Shown piece after piece: positions 46,210-48,964 of a DNA stretch of 64,000 bases (its first letter is position 1; every line of letters begins with the position of its first letter). The translations under genes and the position numbers were made by a program. Under the pieces are notes generated by a model, which saw nothing but the letters and a program-made list of their open reading frames with translations, was not told the origin of the DNA and did no database searches. The stretch is from Clostridia bacterium (GTDB lineage: Bacteria; Bacillota; Clostridia; Lutisporales; Lutisporaceae). The DNA is taken from assembly GCA_035628995.1 (NCBI GenBank), contig DASPIR010000010.1, positions 62,001 through 126,000 on the forward strand, read 5' to 3'.

Positions 46210-47562
46210 TTATCCCTTCAGGGATTCATACGCCTTTATCATTATTGCACACTCGATTCTCTTTTTCTGCAGCTTGCATTCAAGGTCATATGGGCTCTTG
46301 AGGTCATTATTGAAAGCCGCCGCATTTGCCTGACAACCTCCGCTGCAGTAAAATCTCGCCCAGCATTCCCGGCATTTCTCCTTATGATAAACAGTATTTT
46401 CAGAGAACTCTTTTTGAAGTTCCCCATTGGTTACGCCCTTCCAGACATCTCCCATGAGGTATTCCTGCCTTCCCACAAACTGATGGCAGGGATAGAGCTC
46501 TCCATCCGGAGTGACAGCAAAATATTCAACTCCAGACCCGCAGGAGGATACTCTCTTGTAGATGCAAGGACCTCCATCCAAATCCATAAGGAAATGATAA
46601 TATCTGAAGCCCTTTCCACTCTCGTTGTACTCAATGTACTTACTGGCAAGCTTATCGTATTCTTGATATATAACCGGCAGATGCTCCTCGCGAAGAGCAT
46701 AGCCTTTTTCTTTTTCCGCAACCACAGGCTCAATGGAAATCTCCTTAAAGCCTTCATCGGCAAGATGCAGTACATCGCTGCAAAAATCCAGATTGTTCGC
46801 TGTAAAGGTTCCCCTTATGTAATAGCTCTTATCGCCTCTTGATGCTACAAAGCTTTTCATTTTTGGCATAATGCTCTCATATGTGCCGGAACCGTCAACG
46901 AACTTTCTCATGCGGTCATTTACTCGTTTTCTTCCATCTATGCTCAACACTATATTATCCATGTTTCCATTTATAAATTCTTCTATATCCTTGTCCAAGA
47001 GCGTTCCGTTAGTAGTGATGGTGAAACCGATCCTCTTGCCATACTCCTTCTCCCGCTCCCTTGCATAAAGCACCGTTTCCTTTACCACGTCAAAGTTCAT
47101 AAGCGGCTCTCCGCCGAAGAAATCAACCTCCAAGCGCTTCCTTGCTCCAGAAGTGCTCAGAAGGAAGTCAATAGCCTTGGAAGCCACTGTGAAAGGCATC
47201 AGTTTGCGCCCCCCGTGATAGTCTCCGGTTGATGCAAAACAGTAGCCGCATCTTATATTGCAGTCATGGGCTATATTCAGGCATAAGGCTTTAGTATGCG
47301 TTTCCCTTTTCTCGTTTTGTACCTTATCCATATATGTATCTTCAGAATGCAGCAGTCCCTGCTTTTCAAGCTGGCCTATTTCACCCCATGCTTCCCTGAT
47401 ACTTGTCTCAGAATACTTATCATTAAGTTTTTCAATTATATCCTCAACACTGTCTGTGTAGTGGTCTAATATGTCCCAAGTGAGCTGGTCAACCACATGT
47501 ACAGTGCCGCTGTTGACGTCTATAACAATTTTCAAACTGTTTTGTTCGTATTTATGCAGCAT
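46210..47562 (-). CDS. scfB: Radical SAM peptide maturase, SCIFF type
   Basis: The roughly 450-residue radical SAM/SPASM enzyme resembles the maturases of SCIFF peptides, which install thioether bonds at cysteines. The leader-binding N-terminus has IVIDVNSGTVHVVD. The SAM cluster cysteines lie in AHDCNIRCGYCFAS, and DFFGGEPLMNF follows. The SPASM region has cysteines in SSCGSGVEYF, ELYPCHQF, CRECWARFYCSGGCQANA and DLEC. ATG 47562 has GGGGG upstream. The precursor gene normally just upstream is missing here. Confidence 0.88.
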   Translation of the reverse strand: MLHKYEQNSLKIVIDVNSGTVHVVDQLTWDILDHYTDSVEDIIEKLNDKYSETSIREAWGEIGQLEKQGLLHSEDTYMDKVQNEKRETHTKALCLNIAHDCNIRCGYCFASTGDYHGGRKLMPFTVASKAIDFLLSTSGARKRLEVDFFGGEPLMNFDVVKETVLYAREREKEYGKRIGFTITTNGTLLDKDIEEFINGNMDNIVLSIDGRKRVNDRMRKFVDGSGTYESIMPKMKSFVASRGDKSYYIRGTFTANNLDFCSDVLHLADEGFKEISIEPVVAEKEKGYALREEHLPVIYQEYDKLASKYIEYNESGKGFRYYHFLMDLDGGPCIYKRVSSCGSGVEYFAVTPDGELYPCHQFVGRQEYLMGDVWKGVTNGELQKEFSENTVYHKEKCRECWARFYCSGGCQANAAAFNNDLKSPYDLECKLQKKRIECAIMIKAYESLKG

Positions 47563-47708: not shown

Positions 47709-47774
47709 ATTGTTTATCACTGACTATTTTATATTAATTTGCCAGACGTGTCAATTCAACACAACAGCAGCAGT

Positions 47775-47800
47775 AAAAAAATACCGCCCATGGGGCGGCA
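47775..47800 (-). terminator. Terminator of the selenoprotein gene
   Basis: On the minus strand TGCCGCCC-CAT-GGGCGGTA forms a stable stem followed by seven T, six bases after the stop codon. Confidence 0.9.
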
Positions 47801-47805
47801 TTCTG

Positions 47806-47997
47806 CTACTGGACAGCTTTATTCAAATCGTCCATAAGTTCGTCTGTGTTCATCCTATACCTGAGAGCAGCCTGCTCTACAGTCATATACATTGCGCCGC
47901 CTCAGCCAAAGCACTTTATTCCGTGGTTTTTGAATATCTCCTCAAGCTGAGGATATTTATATAGTATATCATCTATTACCATACTTTTATTAAGCAT
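47806..47997 (-). CDS. DUF1858 selenoprotein with in-frame UGA (CxxU)
   Basis: A 63-codon gene with one in-frame TGA at 47902-47904 (codon 32). Reading TGA as selenocysteine (U) gives VIDDILYKYPQLEEIF, then GIKCFGUGGAMYM, then TVEQAALRYRMNTDELMDDL. This is the full DUF1858 pattern, in which the motif is normally CxGC; the second cysteine is exactly the TGA position. ATG follows GGGGGTG by six bases, and a terminator follows the TAG stop. A hairpin starting 19 bases after TGA resembles a bacterial SECIS. It lies 109 bases downstream of a flavin reductase gene. The alternative is a nonsense mutation; intact flanking sequence on both sides argues against decay. Confidence 0.82.
47861..47882 (-). 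promoter_or_regulatory. Putative bacterial SECIS element
   Basis: Downstream of the in-frame UGA the minus strand reads CTG, bulged T, AGAGCA, loop GGC, TGCTCT, CAG: nine pairs with one 5' bulged U and a G-first loop. The loop starts 29 bases after the UGA. Known bacterial SECIS features are a loop 16-37 bases from UGA, a G in the first two loop positions and, in E. coli fdhF, a bulged U. Confidence 0.75.
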
Positions 47998-48106
47998 TTT
48001 TTCACCCCCATTTATTATATGTAATTTTTGATTATTTATATACCTATACGGGGTACGTGTTATCTTAATATCATTATATGATGACAGCCTTTTATTGTCA
48101 ATAATC

Positions 48107-48964
48107 TTATTTATTTTTTTCTTCTAAATACTTCACTGCGCTCAGCGATGCCATGCTGCCTTCCCCTACCGCCTTTGCTATCTGATAGGGCTTTCCTACA
48201 CAGTCTCCGCAGGCAAAAACTCCTTTAATGCTGGTAGCCATTTCTCTGTTTACCTTTATAGAACCCTCATCAAGCTCAAGTCCTTCTATCAGCTGGTTTG
48301 CCGGAATTACGTTCCTAATAATGAATACTGCGTCCACTTTAAGCTCCCTTTGGTCAGTTGTCAGGCTACGAACCTTGTTGCCGTCACCTTGAATTTTGGT
48401 TACTTTTTCTTTGAGCAGCTTAATATTTTCCTTAAGCTTGGGATCTGTGCGATAGGTAGGTATATAGTAAACCTCAGAACAGATCTCAGAAAGAAAATTG
48501 GCTTCCTCTTCCCCTTCCTCGTTCTCTGCTATTATAGCAATAGCCTTGTTCCTGTAAAGGGGACCATCGCAGGTGGCACAGTAGCCTATTCCCTTACCCA
48601 GGTATTCCTTCTCACCTTCAAAATAATTTGCTTTTCCATGTCCTATAGCAATAATAATTGCCTGAGCCTCATAAAACTCATTCCCTGCGTTTATTGAGAA
48701 ATACCCGCCCATATCCAAAATATTAAATGCCTTCTCTTTTTTTATATCTATGCCCATAGAAACCGCATGTTCCTTGAAGCTTGCTATGAGCTCACTGCCG
48801 CTTATTCCCTTCAAACCCAGGTAATTGTCAATCTGAGGAGCTTTCATGAGGCCGGTGACCTTCTCATTGCCGCCAAGCAGTATAAAGCTTTTGTTTCTTA
48901 TTTTAAGATTCAAGGATGCGGAAATGGCCGCAGGGCCTCCGCCTATTATAGCAACATCCATCAT
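48107..48964 (-). CDS. Thioredoxin-reductase-like FAD oxidoreductase
   Basis: The 285-residue flavoprotein has the FAD motif IIGGGPAAISASLNL at the N-terminus, the redox-active CATC in GIGYCATCDGPLYR, and the second FAD motif GVFACGDCVGKPYQIAKAVGEG. The NAD(P)H-binding GxGxxG loop is poor (AIIAENEEGEEEA), so the reductant may be unusual, such as reduced ferredoxin, or may bind differently. It lies directly upstream of the DUF1858 selenoprotein gene, a plausible electron acceptor. Confidence 0.88.
   Translation of the reverse strand: MMDVAIIGGGPAAISASLNLKIRNKSFILLGGNEKVTGLMKAPQIDNYLGLKGISGSELIASFKEHAVSMGIDIKKEKAFNILDMGGYFSINAGNEFYEAQAIIIAIGHGKANYFEGEKEYLGKGIGYCATCDGPLYRNKAIAIIAENEEGEEEANFLSEICSEVYYIPTYRTDPKLKENIKLLKEKVTKIQGDGNKVRSLTTDQRELKVDAVFIIRNVIPANQLIEGLELDEGSIKVNREMATSIKGVFACGDCVGKPYQIAKAVGEGSMASLSAVKYLEEKNK

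Follow-up and report, generated by a model that had tools for sequence, protein, structure and literature searches.

A short frame on the minus strand of the window, a 64,000-nucleotide stretch of a Clostridia bacterium genome (Lutisporaceae; contig DASPIR010000010.1, positions 62,001 to 126,000), encodes a DUF1858 protein if a single in-frame TGA is read through. The locus raises two questions, namely whether this codon marks a broken gene or specifies selenocysteine (Sec), and, in the second case, what a selenoprotein of this kind would do. The gene and its flanking signals are as follows.

47806..47997, minus strand: predicted gene of a 63-aa DUF1858 (PF08984 / TIGR03980) selenoprotein with residue 32 as Sec, including the TAG stop codon
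47902..47904, minus strand: in-frame TGA at the second redox position of CFGU, read as a Sec codon
48002..48009, minus strand: ribosome-binding site GGGGGTGA, seen in the sequence
48073..48101, minus strand: promoter-like TTGACA-17-TATAAT, sigma-70-type, 12/12 consensus match
47774..47798, minus strand: intrinsic-terminator-like hairpin CCGCCC-CAT-GGGCGG with a T-run, 3′ of the TAG, read directly in the sequence

With the TGA translated as U the product is MLNKSMVIDDILYKYPQLEEIFKNHGIKCFGUGGAMYMTVEQAALRYRMNTDELMDDLNKAVQ*, and the TGA at 47904-47902 is the sole interruption of the 63-residue frame (47997-47806). Under translation table 11 the frame stops at codon 31, and gene callers without a Sec model would therefore miss or truncate the gene. 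The read-through protein matches the full domain of both the Pfam DUF1858 profile (53.5 bits against a cut-off of 32.2, E 2.6e-14) and NCBIfam TIGR03980 (59.6 bits against a cut-off of 44.95, E 2.2e-16), an entry named ‘hybrid cluster protein-associated redox disulfide domain’, which confirms the proposal of the initial annotation that read-through restores a whole DUF1858 protein. Its further proposal, that the TGA replaces the second Cys of the family CxxC motif, is borne out by alignment to 2K53 (A3DK08, Clostridium thermocellum) and 2K5E, which share about 30% identity with the selenoprotein and carry CLGC and CIGC, respectively, in place of CFGU. An AlphaFold2 model built with Cys in place of Sec has four helices (pLDDT 94), CFGU falls in the loop that links helix 2 to helix 3, and its best PDB match is 2K53 (TMq 0.88; 2K5E, TMq 0.83), consistent with a shared fold. 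The ribosome site and terminator first noted at this locus are both present, the latter (47798-47774) not being among the matches of a pattern scan for signals. A G-rich ribosome site precedes the gene in 18/18 orthologues, and a -35/-10 pair comparable to that in the window lies 69-75 nt 5′ of the ATG in nine of the 18.

Conservation of the TGA bears directly on whether the gene is intact. One contig-level scan for relatives gave 1 relative only; among the 22 genomes of the same family an orthologue is present in 18, the window copy included, and every one has exactly one TGA and no further stop, with the TGA always at CFGU. The other 17 are 60-83% identical to the window copy. The codon is also TGA in more distant orthologues from two other families (f22, in which the protein reads CFGUGGALYKSI..., and f48), and a homologue in a distant genome (G088) carries TGA within CYGU. 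Values of pN/pS are 0.18 upstream and 0.26 downstream of the TGA, indicating purifying selection on both sides, and the two flanking halves are intact, as originally described. A pseudogene or a sequencing error, in which a Cys codon (TGC or TGT) was mutated to or misread as TGA, would take a single base change, and closely related paralogues of group A1, described below, do swap TGA and TGC among species of one genus; yet the same-codon TGA in 18 family assemblies and two other families, the selection on both halves and the covarying hairpin in effect refute this explanation and leave it a negligible probability.

Decoding of UGA as Sec in bacteria would be aided by a hairpin just downstream, and the conserved core of such an element lies within the coding sequence.

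47864..47878, minus strand: conserved bSECIS core AGAGCA-GGC-UGCUCU, with a 5-nt loop (A-GGC-U) that begins 28 nt past the UGA

In the host genome the hairpin reaches about 47882-47861 and has nine pairs and a bulged U (C-U-G-(U)-AGAGCA-GGC-UGCUCU-C-A-G). A strict contiguous-stem SECIS scan missed it because of the bulge, and a constrained fold was used instead, giving a loop of 5, a stem of 5+3 pairs with one bulge, a spacing of 28 and -11.2 kcal/mol. The published bSECIS model specifies a loop of 3-9 nt, a stem of 4-16 bp and G in loop position 1 or 2, with a spacing of 16-37 nt and MFE <= -7.5 (PMC13188914), and the hairpin fits it, including the SECIS-like spacing that was first reported for it. 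A search with Rfam SECIS_1 gave no match in the genome, but none in any control genome either, and is therefore uninformative. Among the 2,423 TGA triplets in the window, 6.5% pass a similar hairpin test at -7.5, and 1.4% come with a hairpin at least as good as this one; folding alone is therefore weak to moderate evidence.

Comparison among relatives, by contrast, gives strong evidence. Paired cells make up 97.7% of an alignment of 22 Sec sequences and 96.3% of one of 27; both-sided changes occur at three pairs in 17-23 cells, which are non-independent events among kindred sequences, and at least two separate compensatory switches are visible (TTGAGC..GCTCAA and TTCGGC..GCCGAA). The covariation score was reached by 0/500 shuffles, and it falls from 0.37-0.39 to at most 0.09 when the partner columns are slid by 1-3. 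Pairing is kept even where the encoded residues change: GAG CAG GCT GCT CTC (E Q A A L) corresponds in paralogue group C to CGG CAG GCT GCC GAA (R Q A A E), in which Glu becomes Arg and Leu becomes Glu with the stem intact. Gln is encoded by CAG in 22/22 sequences of Sec groups B and C, and CAG:CAA is 10:7 in Cys copies of A1. Taken together, conservation of the TGA and covariation of the stem exclude chance. The nine-pair hairpin with a bulged U in the initial annotation thus stands for the window, GGC loop included, but what the relatives share is confined to the six pairs of the inner stem and a GG-containing loop; neither the bulged U nor the three pairs at the base of the stem are conserved. 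The bulged U was considered as a defining part of the hairpin and dropped, the base being paired in sister groups.

The genome also encodes the factors required for Sec insertion. A selD-selA-selB cluster is found on contig 21, with a selA match of 1.4e-189 and selB over its cut-off; selD has an in-frame UGA of its own (SGUAAKIGPDTL), at the usual Sec site of SelD, and tRNA-Sec (anticodon TCA) lies on the same contig about 15 kb from the cluster, so that selA, selB, selC and selD are all accounted for. Genome-wide reassignment of TGA, or Trp/Cys readthrough without SelB, would likewise yield the full protein, but with the complete Sec machinery in the genome, neighbour genes that are complete under table 11 and a covarying hairpin 3′ of these particular UGA codons it is scarcely credible. 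In sum, the sequence data make SelB-dependent decoding of this UGA as selenocysteine very probable, with codon 32 specifying Sec by means of the downstream hairpin. The selenol would then take the place of the second Cys in the relatives’ CxxC, within the loop that joins helix 2 to helix 3 of a small helical domain, and the Cys29/Sec32 pair would most likely cycle between the thiol/selenol and selenenylsulfide forms.

A Cys-Sec pair that cycles would need a source of electrons, and the adjoining upstream gene offers a candidate.

48107..48964, minus strand: FFTR-like flavoprotein, 285 aa, with CATC and without both NADPH motifs

This gene is the same-strand upstream neighbour in 17/18 family loci; in the remaining genome (G013) no FFTR gene adjoins the DUF1858 selenoprotein gene. 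The best solved relatives of the flavoprotein are 6GNA-6GND (264-280 bits versus 138 for the next reductase), which we take to be the clostridial FFTR structures although their PDB files name them thioredoxin reductase. The flavoprotein orthologues examined keep CATC and lack both HRRxxxR and the second GxGxxA, which reads AENEEG; the host’s canonical NADPH-type reductase has GGGDAA and HRREEFR. These two motifs distinguish FFTR from NAD(P)H-type enzymes in Clostridia (PMC10880999), and the flavoprotein sides with FFTR, being nearest to the 6GNA group and without either motif. The canonical reductase adjoins a thioredoxin gene on contig 29. No thioredoxin gene stands beside the FFTR-like gene; the DUF1858 gene occupies that place. 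The arrangement resembles the Clostridia thioredoxin/FFTR system (6GNA-6GND; PMC10880999) in pairing a CATC flavoprotein lacking NADPH motifs with an adjoining small CxxC/U protein, and differs in that the small protein there has the thioredoxin fold, whereas here it is a helical DUF1858 selenoprotein and a putative FFTR substrate.

Judged from sequence and gene order, the FFTR-like flavoprotein may be the redox partner that reduces the selenoprotein, a proposal to which we would give roughly, but somewhat less than, an even chance. It would pass electrons from ferredoxin to the Cys-Sec bond, and the selenoprotein would act as a small thioredoxin in a thioredoxin-like selenol relay. Slightly more tentative is the extension in which the always-Sec DUF1858 group is the dedicated electron acceptor of the flavoprotein, giving a ferredoxin-to-selenol relay without thioredoxin. 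Another thioredoxin gene, elsewhere in the genome on contig 23, could equally be the partner of the flavoprotein. Co-transcription of the two genes is uncertain because a promoter of the selenoprotein gene’s own, 3′ of the FFTR gene, appears in 9/18 loci. The FFTR linkage is confined to the host’s own family, and orthologues in f22 have no FFTR within stretches covering up to 6 kb on each side. In G088 the CYGU gene overlaps by ATGA the gene of a flavoprotein that resembles CoA-disulfide reductase and includes a rhodanese domain (L148:6001-7847), which is a second, different disulfide-reductase neighbour of a DUF1858 selenoprotein. The G088 gene has the hairpin AAGCAUC-GGC-GAUGCUU, in a different register.

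The protein, while containing Sec, might instead have a role unlike that of thioredoxin, either in iron-sulphur or metal repair, to which its ScdA_N/YtfE-like fold points, or as a redox accessory for the neighbouring SCIFF maturase or PduL. Downstream lie genes for a SCIFF peptide radical-SAM maturase (TIGR03974), pduL and deoC, and the maturase and pduL are downstream in nearly all family loci. In f22 (L142-L147) the CFGU orthologue has pduL within about 2 kb, without the maturase; since FFTR is absent there, the pduL linkage may predate the FFTR linkage. A terminator-like hairpin, however, stands between the selenoprotein gene and the SCIFF maturase, the maturase does not adjoin the gene in G013 or f22, and conserved gene order alone may be passive synteny. 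Metal repair is suggested by a weak sequence match to ScdA_N/ScdA and a weak fold match of the model to the YtfE N-terminal domain, but the ScdA matches fall under curated cut-offs (30.4 versus 259 bits for the ScdA / RIC profile). They involve only the N-terminal-like part of ScdA over 63 aa, and the C-terminal hemerythrin-like di-iron domain of ScdA / RIC is absent from the 63-aa protein. On balance we consider a non-thioredoxin role of this kind rather unlikely. The SCIFF peptide maturase gene itself occupies 46210-47562 of the window, minus strand, and no Cys-rich SCIFF peptide gene is evident beside it in the window.

The initial annotation had suggested that this might be a new or little-known selenoprotein family, and in this it was mistaken. 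A ‘DUF1858 domain-containing protein, pfam08984, CxxU’ is entered in selenoprotein catalogues of 2022 and 2026 (PMC9312934 and PMC13188914), the example WP_012065717.1 belonging to the same Pfam family with Sec at the same second position, and the window gene adds a member to this known family. Neither catalogue assigns the family a function or a partner, or divides it into subgroups. A link between DUF1858 and FFTR was not found in the titles and abstract openings of eight papers that name DUF1858. The proposed reductase offers a testable partner for a selenoprotein family so far catalogued without a function, and the SECIS element of the family is now backed by covariation.

The advance beyond the catalogue entries is modest, and includes the distribution of Sec among DUF1858 subgroups, several of which use it within one genome. 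The host has four DUF1858 genes, three with exactly one TGA, and the orthologue group of the window gene appears, from the sequences at hand, always to use Sec. In groups A1 (MHCL[GS]-C/U-PGA) and A2 (MGCVG-C/U) Cys and Sec alternate, and in A1 the exchange of TGA and TGC separates species of one genus (L001, L026 and L049 versus L023, L022 and L041). The A1 proteins of G002 and G004 are identical except for Cys/Sec. Paralogue group C, with GCGU instead of CxxU, has TGA in every copy read. It is divergent (L004, L033-L037), its hairpin register is the same, and with scores that lie close to the family cut-off or under it, the group may escape annotation. A tree of the DUF1858 groups over 63 columns has few well-supported forks, and no weight is placed on it. 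The fourth host gene (L002:219-1686) is without the Cys/Sec motif and precedes a gene for a DUF438-hemerythrin-PAS protein.
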